This document shows positions 11,208 through 34,606 of a DNA stretch of 34,606 bases, piece by piece; within the stretch, counting starts at the first letter, position 1, and every line of letters begins with the position of its first letter. The translations under genes were made by a program, and so were the position numbers. A model generated the notes under the pieces. It saw only the letters and a program-made list of their open reading frames with translations. It was not told where the DNA came from and made no database searches. This DNA comes from an uncultured Ignavibacteriales bacterium (GTDB lineage Bacteria > Bacteroidota > Ignavibacteria > Ignavibacteriales > Ignavibacteriaceae). The stretch spans positions 1 through 34,606 of the forward strand of contig CAIYTF010000003.1 of NCBI GenBank assembly GCA_903929035.1, read 5' to 3'.

Positions 11208-14200
11208 AAGAAGATGAAGAGGGACTAATCACCAATAGCCCCGATGATGACTCTATACCACGATCTACTGATTCTCCAATAGAGAACGGAGGGAAAAATG
11301 ATTTCATTTCCTCACCAGATCACGGCATACCGTCCAAGGAACAAACAGCTATTGAAAGAAACTTTCTTAACAGATTTGAAAAATTAACCGGTCCTTTTGA
11401 TAAAGTAAAAGAAAATACAAAAAAACTTCTTCGCCGTTCCGCCTTTCATAAAACTGTTAACTGGTTCCTTGGTATAATGATTTTCATATTTGCTGTCTTC
11501 ATTATTTTGCTTGGTTTTTCACAAACATCCACTTTCAGAAATTTTGTTCGGCAAAAACTTGTTGCAATATTGAATGAAGAAACAAAAGGACATTTTTCAA
11601 TTGGTCAAATTGACGGTTCATTCTTTACCGCACTTACTATACGCGATGTTGCACTCACGTATAGCAGCGATACTATCGGTAAGTTTACTAAAATAAGTAT
11701 ACGCCTCAATCCAATGGCACTGCTTATAAAAACTATCAGTATTACTGATATTTCAGTTCATTATCCTTATGCCGCGTTAGAAACAGACAGTACAGGAACA
11801 CTCAATTTTGCAAGAGTATTCCCATCTAAGGAAAAGCCCGATACTGCACCTTCAAGTTTTCCATACAAAATTGATGTTGGTAATTTTGAAATTGTTTCAG
11901 GCAAATTTAATGTTTATGATTGGAGGTACAGGGATAGTCTTGTTCCGAATCAAATATTAAACATTGAAAATCTGAGGCTTGATAGTTTTCATCTGAAACT
12001 TAAAGCTCAGATTGATATTGATAATAAAGATTTCAAAGTCGATATTAAAAATTTAGAAGCTAAAACAAACCTTAAAAATATCCATAATATTGTTTTTTCT
12101 TCAGATATTAGATTGAATAGAAAGACTATAGAGGTGAACAATCTTTCTATTAATACATTGCATACTGAAATAAAAGCATCACTTAAAACCGATGGTCTTG
12201 ATATTTTCAGTGGTATAACGAGAGAAAAGTTAAAACAAACAAAAGTCTCTCTTAAATTAGAATTGCCAAAATTTAGTTTTGATGAGTTGACGGCTTTTGT
12301 CCCCGCTGTAGATATGCTCAAAGGAGATTTACGAGGTGAACTGATGGCGGAAGGATTTATCAACAAGCTTAGCATTCGTAAACTTTTTGTTGAGTATGGT
12401 GAGACTTCGCTTCTTGTACAAGGCAGATTTGAAAATTTAGATAATCCTAAAGAATTACTCATTTTTGCTGATATGACAAAATCAAAATTAGTACCCGAGA
12501 ACATTTCGCGATTATTACCTGCAGTTACGTTACCGGAGCTAAAAGGATTTGAATCGATTCAAATCGACAGTTTAAGTTTTTCCGGCAAACCGTTAACTTT
12601 TAAGACCAAAAGCAAATTATCAGTATCGGGAGGCATTTTGCGCTCAGATGCAATTCTTGATTTTAGCGGTAGTTCAATGAAATATTCTGCTTCTCTATAT
12701 TCCGATAATATTAATTTAGGAGGTGTTGCACACTATCCTATTAATTTTAACGGTGCTGTTTCAATTTCCGGACAAGGTTTTGACCCAAAAACTGCTGAAT
12801 TGATTTGCAAATTAAACGGCGATAATTCTATCATTGGGAATAAACATTTTAATAAGCTAAATTTAAACGCTTCTCTTGCTAATGGTGATTTGGTTACTGA
12901 TTTGAACGCGCTAACTTCACGAGACTCTCTTTCTTTTATTGGTAATCTAAATTTTATCAACGATACTTTGCCTGAATATTCAGGGAAACTAAACTTGTCA
13001 GGTTTTAATCTTGCGCCACTCTTGATGGACTCTGCTCTAAGCTCAAAAATAAATTTAAGTTTAGACCTGACTGCCAAAGGATTTAATCCTGATGATATTT
13101 CCGGAATATTTAATTTAGATATTAATAATTCCTTGATAAATGCAAATTTGTTAGATAGTCTTCACGCTGCATTAACTATCACTCGCGGACAAAATTATTA
13201 CCACCGCTTCAGCTTGTTATCAGATGTAGCTGACTTGGAAATCAAGGGCAATTTTCCTGTTATCGGGTTTGCTAATTCAGTTAGGACTCAAACAAACTTA
13301 ATATCTTCTGCTATTGCTAATAAATTGTCTACATATTTCCCAAAATTGTTTTCATCTGACACGAGCAAATCTACAATAAAACTCGATTCTGCTGCTAAAA
13401 CATCAGCCCCTTATGATGTTGAAGCATCGTTAAAAATAAAAGACACGAAAACCATCAATACGTTCATTCCAAATCTTAAAGTTGATTTTGACGGCGAAAT
13501 ATTGACAAAATTTTCACAAACAGGCACTGATTTTCATTTTGACCTGATGTCTGAAATTAAACTTTTAAAAATGGAGTTTAAAGAAAGTGTTTATTATATC
13601 TATGACGGTTCGTGTACCGCGAAGATTAACGCGGATACAAAACTAAGAGATATTTCTGAAGTCTCCGCCGATATCGACTTCTCTGCCACACGTTTTCTTG
13701 TTAATCAAGAGCTGCAAGATGTTGCTGTCAATTTAAGCATAGAACGAGGGATTGCAAAAATCGGGTGCGAAGTAAGTATGCTTGATAAAATGCGGACAAC
13801 TTTCGATGGTTCTTTTAACCTGACAGAGGACATACTCGATCTCCGGTGTAAAAAGCTTGTATTCAAATATTACCGGTTTGAAATTAAAAATCAGAAGCCC
13901 TTTTCAATTGCATATATCGATGATAACTTTGCTATTACGGGACTTGAACTGAAACGCGGCGATTCAAAAATGACTGTTGAAGGCAACATTTCAGCAAGCA
14001 AGACAGAAAACCTGAAAATAACATTGAGTAACTTAAAGGGTTATGATCTCAGTTATTCATTATTGGGAACTTCGCCGTCTGACATTATTGACAGTGATAT
14101 AAATGTGACAATGCTTCTTTCCGGAACCTTTAAACAGCCTTTGATCTCATTGACTTTAGATGCTGACAGCGTTACATATAAATCAACAAATTTTGGATCA

Positions 14201-31820: not shown

Positions 31821-33470
31821 ATGTTTTTACCAAAACTATTCACCACGTTAAAAGATTATAATCGCGAACAATTTATTGCCGATACATCAGCAGGTATTAT
31901 TGTTGGTATTGTTGCTCTTCCTCTCGCGATAGCGTTTGGAATAGCTTCCGGTGTAACTCCATCACAAGGTATTATTACAGCTATTATTGGCGGATTCATT
32001 GTTTCGGCATTGGGTGGAAGCCGCGTTCAAATTGGCGGTCCAACAGGAGCATTCATCATAATTGTTTATGGTATTGTACAAACTTACGGGATGGCTGGTC
32101 TTACTATCGCCACGGTGATGGCAGGATTTATTTTAATTGCAATGGGGCTTGCCCGCTTCGGATCGGTTATTAAGTTCATTCCATATCCTGTTACAGTCGG
32201 GTTCACGAGCGGAATTGCTCTGCTTATTTTTTCCACGCAAATAAAAGATTTTTTTGGACTTGTTATTGCCAAAGTGCCATCGGAATTTCACGAAAAATGG
32301 ATTTCATATTTTTTTAATTTTTATTCAGTGAATTATTTTTCGACAGGGATTGCTTCACTTGCATTGGCGATAATGATATTCTGGCCAAAAGTGACTAATA
32401 AAATTCCCGGTTCTCTCATCGCGATAATAATTACGACAGTGATAGTTCAACTTTTGAATTTTCCGGTAGAAACTATTGGCAGCCGTTTTGGTGAAATATC
32501 GTCAAATCTCCCTGCACCAAAATTCTTTCCAATAAATTTCAGTACTGTTAAAAACCTTATAGGTCCTGCATCAACTATTGCAATTCTTGCAGCTATCGAA
32601 TCATTACTTTCGGCTGTGGTATCGGACGGGATGGTGGGCACGAAACATAGAAGTAATATGGAATTGATCGCGCAAGGTGCGGCAAATCTTGGGTCCGCTG
32701 TTTTCGGCGGTATTCCTGTAACCGGAGCAATTGCCCGTACTGTTGTTAACGTGAAAAATGGCGGTAGAACTCCAATCGCCGGAATAATTCACGCTATAAC
32801 ACTATTATTGATTATGCTTTTCTTTGGCAGCCTGGCAAAACTTATTCCTATGGCAACACTTGCCGCTATACTGGTGATTGTGGCTTATAATATGAGCGAG
32901 TGGCGATCCTTCTTGGAACTATTGAAAAGTCCGCGGAGCGATGTGATTGTTTTAGTGACAACGTTTTTGCTTACCGTGATATTTGATTTAACAATCGCGA
33001 TTGAAATTGGGATGGTACTATCGGTATTTTTATTTATGAGACGTATGTCGGAAGTAACAAATATCGGATTAATAAAAAGAGAAATGTCTGATGATGAAGA
33101 GAAGCCCGATCTAAATTCAATCTCGACCAAAGATATTCCGGAAAGTGTTGAAGTATTTGAAATTAATGGTCCTTTTTTCTTTGGTGCCGCATCCAAGTTC
33201 TTAGATGAAATGCGTATAGCCGGCAAACCGCCCAAAGTGCGAATTGTCCGTATGCGAAATGTTCCCGCTATAGATGCAACAGGATTGCATACTCTAAAAG
33301 ATTTTTATTTGGATTCTAAAGAACAAGGAACCCTGGTAATTCTTTCAGATGTACATACCCAGCCGCTTTTCGCGATTACACAGTCCGGTTTGATTGATTT
33401 GTTTGGTGAGCAATATATCGTGGGCAACATTGATGAAGCACTTCAAAAAGCCCGAGACATTATCCGGTAA
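31821..33470 (+). CDS. SulP-family anion permease with STAS domain
   Basis: This 549-residue SLC26/SulP transporter probably moves sulfate, bicarbonate or another anion across the inner membrane. The transmembrane part (about 20-420) has the SulP hallmarks: [27 protein letters not shown], and the conserved [11 protein letters not shown] and [12 protein letters not shown] motifs. A cytoplasmic STAS domain occupies about 438-545, with the conserved IDATGL segment (D485). Anion choice cannot be read from sequence. No sulfate-assimilation or carbonic anhydrase gene is nearby. It has its own 192-base upstream gap, in which I see no convincing promoter of the type found elsewhere in the window. Confidence 0.93.
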
Positions 33471-33528
33471 ATTTTATTACAACGATTGTTCAATAATAAC
33501 GTGGGTCAAATGGATTTAAATAATTTAT

Positions 33529-33543
33529 AGGGACACCCTTTTT
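33529..33543 (+). terminator. Candidate terminator after the SulP gene
   Basis: AGGG (33529-33532), a three-base ACA loop and CCCT (33536-33539) form a compact hairpin followed by T residues through 33543, about 60 bases after the SulP stop. The stem has only four pairs but is GC-rich and is followed directly by the T run. Confidence 0.4.
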
Positions 33544-33763
33544 GAGCATAGTCCGAGTTTTTACGTGTACTTGCTAAAAAGCACTTAAATCGAACGCGAT
33601 GCGAATCAATGACCTAAATTCAACTTTCGGCATTTCTAGGAGCTTTTATACCGGTTTGTCTGCGCAGATGGCAGGCAAATGGGTGCCATTTAATACCAAA
33701 CCGATAACAAGTTGAATAGTATGCAGAGCAATCTGCAATCAGTAAATGGAATGCTCGCGGCGA

Positions 33764-33832
33764 TACTCCAAAGGAGTAAAATTTGAATAACCGTGAGCGA
33801 GTGCCGTGCAGCGGCGCGATGCTCACGGAAAA
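33764..33832. repeat. Left inner arm: two-hairpin palindromic unit
   Basis: Hairpin one is TACTCC-AAA-GGAGTA (33764-33778). After a linker with AATTTGAATAA comes hairpin two, CCGTGAGC (33791-33798) with GCTCACGG (33821-33828), enclosing a smaller GCCG/CGGC stem. The linker and the start of hairpin two match the reverse complement of the right arm exactly for 21 bases. Confidence 0.75.
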
Positions 33833-33954
33833 CGTTACAAACAAGTAATGTTCCCTGCAAGGGGACAACCAAAATCGGTATACTCAGTAACTTTTGGGCG
33901 ATATTGAGTGGTTAAGTTTGCCTCCTACGGAGACGAGAGAGTGGACTCTGCGCA

Positions 33955-34024
33955 TTTTCCGTGAGCATCGCACCGCTTCGCGGTACTTCGCTCACGGTTA
34001 TTCAAATTGAACTCTTTCAGAGTA
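33955..34024. repeat. Right inner arm: inverted copy of the two-hairpin unit
   Basis: Hairpin CCGTGAGC (33959-33966) with GCTCACGG (33990-33997) encloses ACCGC-TTC-GCGGT; then comes ACTCT-TTC-AGAGT (34011-34023). Against the left arm, one C-G pair in the small hairpin has become T-A, and the outer G-C pair of the enclosed stem has become A-T. Both stems therefore stay paired despite divergence. Confidence 0.75.
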
Positions 34025-34137
34025 CTCGGAATAACACGGTTGATTTAATCTAACTTGTTATCGATTTGTATAAGAACGGCGAATAAACTGTTTGACTTTT
34101 TCAGGAGACCCTAATTGGTTGATAAGGTAAAAATATG

Positions 34138-34208: not shown

Positions 34209-34606
34209 TCAAACAACTAATTTCGGAACAGTAAAATAAAACGTACTCCCGATACCATCCCTGCTTTCCACCCAAATTTTGCCGCCGTGCTTTTCAACAA
34301 ATTCCTTGCATAGAATTAATCCCAAACCCGTGCTGGGTTCATTTTCTGTTCCGGTTGTGCCCACTTTTTCGCCGACTATAAAAAGCTTATCAATCACATC
34401 TTTATGAATGCCGATACCGGTATCTGTTACCGATATTTCCACCATCCCTGCTTCCGTCTCCTTTGCTCCGATGGTGACAGTCCCGCCCTTTCCCGTGAAT
34501 TTTACAGCATTTGTCAAAAGATTTCTAATAACGGTACTTATCATTTTCTCATCGGCAAATATGTTTTCAACTTCCGTGCTTTCCCCGATAGAATCGGGAC
34601 AAGCGC
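34209..34606 (-). CDS. Sensor histidine kinase, C-terminal ATPase part (cut by window edge)
   Basis: Only the last 132 residues or so are inside the window; the frame stays open to the right edge, and the methionine at 34544 is internal, not the start. What is visible is the HATPase_c domain of a histidine kinase. It has the N box RNLLTNAVKFTG, the G1 box DTGIGI, the G2 region GLGLILCKEFVEKHGG, and the closing GSTFYFTVP. The signal-sensing part and the phospho-acceptor histidine lie outside. No receiver follows the ATPase domain, so it is not a hybrid at its C-terminus. An intrinsic terminator follows the stop. Confidence 0.9.
   Translation of the reverse strand, partial: ACPDSIGESTEVENIFADEKMISTVIRNLLTNAVKFTGKGGTVTIGAKETEAGMVEISVTDTGIGIHKDVIDKLFIVGEKVGTTGTENEPSTGLGLILCKEFVEKHGGKIWVESRDGIGSTFYFTVPKLVV

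Follow-up and report, generated by a model that had tools for sequence, protein, structure and literature searches.

RUP and Correia elements are bacterial MITEs, and 3-bp targets of the form TNA are characteristic of both the IS1031-type elements of the IS5 family and the eukaryotic PIF/Harbinger elements. QMITE2 of Coxiella is another bacterial MITE (reviewed in PMC10969869). REPINs and BIMEs, which go together with RAYTs (PMC3733652, PMC6006769, PMC3116915), are defined by a hairpin with an unpaired GTAG (or CGTC) foot (PMC3733652).

The window, i.e. the whole stretch of 34,606 nucleotides analysed here from an uncultured Ignavibacteriales bacterium, contains an element that resembles the bacterial MITEs in that it is short and geneless, has terminal inverted repeats, many intergenic copies and a target duplication, and folds strongly. 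In contrast to those elements, the ends of its family, which we call F1, are unrelated to any named family that we found, and its core consists of two head-to-head half-units of three hairpins each, which are also present in a second MITE family with unrelated ends. The TNA-form 3-bp target is shared with the IS1031-type elements and PIF/Harbinger, but the only IS5-type sequence in this genome is a degenerate fragment, and its ends are not those of F1. Because many copies have the same ends, sites without the element exist in a host repeat (F4), and a 3-bp TAA duplication is present, we conclude with a probability of about 0.9 that the window feature represents one member of a family of non-autonomous DNA transposons (MITEs) that was amplified in this genome. 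The same evidence bears out the first identity offered by the sequence-only reading, namely a transposable element that is non-autonomous and whose terminal inverted repeats are the outer ends. F1 is a new family of MITEs whose cargo, rich in hairpins, is shared.

Borders, copies and target site

Outer ends matching at 16 of 17 bases and inner arms of about 70 bases had been reported from the sequence, and both were recovered by our repeat search, the ends as 33697-33713/34052-34068 (17 nt, 94%) and the arms as 33764-33800/33988-34024 (37 nt, 86%) plus 33800-33832/33955-33987 (33 nt, 88%). The RNA fold of the region reaches -172.3 kcal/mol, compared to -98.5 +/- 5.5 in shuffles (z = -13.5), and the DNA fold gives a z of -11.0 against shuffles. 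An alignment of the copies shows that the true outer end is 20 bp long and begins 3 bp beyond the reported one, with TACCAAACCGATAACAAGTT at 33694, and that the right end of the window copy lacks one G and carries a G-to-A change. The element therefore spans 33694-34070 (377 bp), with TAA on each side. No gene covers it, in agreement with the earlier claim that no gene explains the symmetry. A plus-strand SulP-type permease (Sulfate_transp + STAS) ends at 33470 on its left and a minus-strand histidine-kinase HATPase frame ends at 34209 on its right, so that the element sits between convergent genes. The outer features are as follows:

33485..33693, plus strand: left part of the F4 host repeat, F4's own left end being lost (match to L182, L149 and L060)
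33691..33693, plus strand: left TAA of the 3-bp target duplication (four empty F4 copies, CCATT-TAG-GAACGG)
33694..34070, plus strand: complete MITE copy of the F1a type, 377 bp, ends TACC...GTA (copy alignment; empty sites)
33694..33713, plus strand: left terminal inverted repeat TACCAAACCGATAACAAGTT (94 own-genome matches, 0 for the reversed control)
34052..34070, minus strand: right terminal inverted repeat, decayed by one substitution and one lost base (repeat search and copy alignment)
34071..34073, plus strand: right TAA of the target duplication (comparison with empty F4 copies)
34071..34111, plus strand: right part of the F4 host repeat, ending in GACTTTTTCAGGAGACCC (F4 comparison)

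A search of the bacterium's own genome (3.36 Mb, 222 contigs) with 33690-34075 returned many further copies, so the region is not single-copy. About 15 are near full-length at 79-95% identity, and there are about two dozen full-size or cut copies in all, plus short forms down to about 50 bp; the self-comparison covered about 1.2 Mb of the 3.36 Mb. The 20-bp end TACCAAACCGAYAACAAGTT has 94 matches in the genome at up to three mismatches (reversed control pattern: 0). Aligned with their flanks, as the earlier reading had proposed, the copies show common borders, TACCAAACCGAYAACAAGTTGAATAG... and ...AACTTGTTATCGGTTTGGTA, and these terminal inverted repeats enclose dispersed copies at unrelated sites. 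Element sizes are about 49 bp (L062, two ends back to back), about 87, 146 and 265 bp, and up to 385 bp, with several different interiors. None of these elements of about 49-385 bp, all below the roughly 600 bp expected of a MITE, contains a transposase gene. We checked 24 copies that carry the core; none of them falls within a long open frame, and they show no preference for gene orientation.

Among the genomes compared, the family is known in copy number from this bacterium only. The F1 end family is missing from 30 relatives, including members of the same genus, apart from one stray single match, and the exact terminal repeat has no match in all GTDB genomes or in viral contigs. In 390 other genomes of the class the F1 ends do not form a family, with one or two scattered matches at most and a single exception (G347, see below).

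The window copy is inserted in the dispersed repeat F4, of which four copies without the MITE were found, two in L182 and one each in L060 and L175. The empty site reads CCATT-TAG-GAACGG (CTATT instead of CCATT in L175), and the filled site reads CCATT-TAA-MITE-TAA-GAACGG, which supplies the empty sites and the target duplication that the earlier reading had suggested looking for. The duplicated TAA is one base off the TAG of the empty sites, and it had been hidden because one G is deleted at the right end. A logo of the flanks next to F1 ends gives Y-T-N-A, with T at 82% and A at 79%. Twenty other copies have TNA at both ends, and a hand count shows an identical central base in only 6 of them, which is chance level, so that no duplication can be claimed from those copies alone; many copies must be rearranged or old, and the duplication thus rests mainly on the window copy. 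An orthologous empty site was also sought through the SulP gene, for which the relatives are too distant. Palindromic target sites were considered and rejected (left flank vs. reverse complement of the right flank, p = 0.16).

F4 itself is a fourth dispersed repeat (window 33485-34111; L182:11117-11378 and 11942-12167) with ends GGGTTTCCTGAAAAAGTC and TA next to them, possibly of IS630 type. Two further F1 copies, L021:5004-5384 and L034:5004-5136, have alike flanks on both sides with a coding-like left flank, which suggests a duplication that took in the element. At L015:4979-5467 an F1 copy lies 19 bp inside an element of a third family, and since L024 and L036 have identical junctions, this composite seems to have been copied as one unit.

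The hairpin core and its two shells

The core of F1 consists of two head-to-head half-units, each with hairpin A, the linker AAATTTGAATAA, hairpin B, an A/C-rich linker and hairpin C; the arms of about 70 bases correspond to the A and B hairpins of both half-units. In the window copy the core is laid out as follows:

33764..33778, plus strand: left half-unit, hairpin A, TACTCC-AAA-GGAGTA (half-unit alignment)
33779..33790, plus strand: left half-unit, conserved linker AAATTTGAATAA (near-invariant over representative half-units; motif 176 times in the genome)
33791..33828, plus strand: left half-unit, hairpin B, CCGTGAGC...GCTCACGG (repeat search and half-unit alignment)
33851..33866, plus strand: left half-unit, hairpin C, TTCCCTGCAAGGGGAC (half-unit alignment)
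33920..33934, minus strand: right half-unit, hairpin C (half-unit alignment)
33959..33997, minus strand: right half-unit, hairpin B (repeat search and half-unit alignment)
33998..34010, minus strand: right half-unit, conserved linker (half-unit alignment)
34011..34023, minus strand: right half-unit, hairpin A (half-unit alignment)

The motif MAATTTGAATAACCGYGRG is found 176 times in the bacterium's own genome (reversed control: 0) and once, with one mismatch, in the 30 relatives. Many contigs have core motifs near their ends, which partly accounts for how fragmented the assembly is.

In six F1a copies (L023 and L027-L031) the orientation of the core is reversed with respect to the ends, as would be expected from recombination between the arms; a second test confirmed the reversal in three of the six. 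Two copies of about 146 bp (L033 and L035) are without the core, and the missing part is bounded precisely by AAATT repeats, which is what slippage at the palindrome base would produce. The opposite order of events, insertion of the core into short MITEs with duplication of AAATT, was set aside; deletion reads better because the A hairpins, which lie outside the AAATT repeats, belong to the core in all shells.

The second family, F2, is an IS66-derived MITE of about 265-270 bp that is present in high copy and frequently at contig ends (L097, i.e. G000:C208, as well as L076, L077 and L080); its end is common to an IS66 element in L097. The half-units of F2 and F1 are laid out alike and agree fully in the linker and B-stem motif, AAATTTGAATAACCGTGAG, whereas the stems of hairpins A and C differ. 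The shells differ as well: the ends of F2 are GTAACTACTCAGCC and its duplications are 8 bp long (CTTGAAAT in L076, AAAAATTT in L077 and CCAAAAAG in L080), F1 has TACCAAACC and the 3-bp TNA. Of 123 core motifs in the loci examined, 48 are in F1 shells and 49 in F2 shells, and several more are in F2 variants with GTAACTACTTTAG; contig ends truncate another 12, and most of the remainder have lost one end. As the same half-unit is found in both shells, the core is a cargo that has switched transposon shells. This transfer probably proceeded by nested insertion and subsequent loss of one set of ends, and L048, where F2 is nested in an F1-type end, offers a plausible route for passing the core on.

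Could the core be a functional structured RNA or single-stranded DNA element, such as a regulator or a packaging or replication signal, that is merely spread by its shell? This concerns the core alone and is compatible with the MITE reading of the whole; we regard it as unlikely, though it fares best among the alternatives. The linker AATTTGAATAA hardly varies, whereas the shells differ by paired changes in stems A, B and C, and the head-to-head order provides one sense half-unit whichever strand is transcribed. In 20 representative half-units, aligned with the B loops replaced by GAAA, 97.6% of cells pair, a fraction that is biased because the half-units were delimited by their best stems, and two-sided changes are seen in 9 of 17 pairs. 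The covariation is 0.429 compared to 0.212 in shuffles (reached in 0 of 500), but templated repair also keeps palindromes homogeneous where no selection acts, and since such repair and selection for structure both predict paired changes, covariation does not prove function. Moreover, Rfam gave no match at gathering score in the window and two sub-threshold chance matches elsewhere, and no promoter or terminator signal was found inside the element. The large folded RNA named as a further identity in the sequence-only reading may apply to the core, whose stems co-vary, but no Rfam family matches it. It is similarly doubtful that the half-unit is a selected RNA or ssDNA module which rides shells with unrelated transposases (TNA-type and IS66-type) and spreads by changing its vehicle.

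In either case, several families of miniature transposons in this genome have unrelated ends but share a palindromic cargo, and they occur nested within each other. Under selection, the cargo would be a module able to outlast individual transposases by changing shells; without selection, it would be a clear case of palindromes passing between mobile elements, with pairing kept by templated repair.

Candidate transposases

In the MITE reading, a DDE-type transposase supplied in trans would bind the 20-bp terminal repeats, and insertion at YTNA sites would duplicate the 3-bp TNA, in line with the TNA targets and the TAA of the window copy. The alternative that F1 is a Tc1/IS630-type MITE with a TA duplication, and that the flanking YTNA only reflects a target preference, appears improbable. 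It would account for the central base of TNA being unmatched between the ends of most copies, and the genome has IS630 transposases. However, a TA duplication needs five more bases in the empty site, expected to read TNATATNA, and all four empty F4 sites, with CCATT-TAG-GAACGG, are 5 bp too short; nor does either IS630 locus (L070-L072) have matching ends.

The DDE transposase with matching ends that the earlier reading had proposed to look for was not found in the assembled genome by Pfam searches (DDE_Tnp_1, Y1_Tnp, DDE_3, IS66 and DDE_Tnp_1_2). Only IS66 among these five families gave a partner, and for F2. The IS630 copies and the IS5-type relic have ends other than those of F1, and no convergent pair of F1 ends spanning a transposase was present in the own-genome sequence examined (about 1.2 Mb of 3.36 Mb). 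The partner IS would bear the ends TACCAAAC..ACAACAAGAT.

A probable source of such a transposase is an IS like the one whose end, TACCAAACATACAACAAGAT, occurs in six copies in Candidatus Kapaibacterium sp. LacPavin_0818_WC45_MAG_29_7 (G347), a MAG of the same class and the sole near match with six copies among the 390 genomes. This IS-like end matches the AAGAT subfamily of F1 at 18 of 20 bases and is preceded by TNA in every copy (TAA, TCA, TAA, TTA, TTA and TAA), and all six copies are at contig ends. The five longer ones enter an identical open frame, ...RIMNSMEEVIDTLAEALHQIHDEKEIIKSLCNYHWLYS*, which comprises 38 codons, runs off the contig and terminates just inside the end. This frame resembles the 3'-terminal part of a transposase gene, whose interior would lie beyond the contig ends; no assembly searched contains the full gene. 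No Pfam or NCBIfam model matches this 38-residue C-terminus, and a tblastn search with the 38 residues against plasmids and phages gave no significant match. In a search for its protein motif in GTDB genomes, only G347's own copies were real among the matches listed.

That F1 is a cluster of REP/BIME (REPIN) type mobilised by a REP-associated tyrosine transposase, the remaining identity suggested by the sequence-only reading, is largely refuted: as in REPINs and BIMEs, the hairpin-bearing units form inverted pairs, and of the two Y1 transposases in the genome, the one at L069 has other hairpin repeats on either side, but the half-units lack the unpaired GTAG or CGTC foot, the element is bounded by terminal repeats in the style of protein transposons and by a target duplication, almost no core lies outside a shell with such repeats, the AATTTGAATAACCG motif has no copy in the L068 or L069 locus, and there is no association with a RAYT, L069 scoring 55.5 bits where the IS200/IS605 cut-off is 55 and giving no RAYT match, and L068 giving a RAYT match only far below the cut-off.

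Two observations concern the Y1 loci themselves. A divergent F1 end, TATCAAACCGACATCAGGTT, is present at L068:1199, at a distance of 245 bp from the IS200/IS605 transposase, and a second end was not found nearby. L069:1102-2115 (G000:C219) encodes a Y1 (IS200-like) transposase of 153 amino acids with the motifs NHLH, WQ and YIMNQKEH, which resembles subclass 1.2 of PMC6006769 and sits between hairpin repeats of the third family (ends GTAACTGTTTAGG / CCTAAACAGTTAC, the hairpin followed by ATGTTTGTAGAAA).
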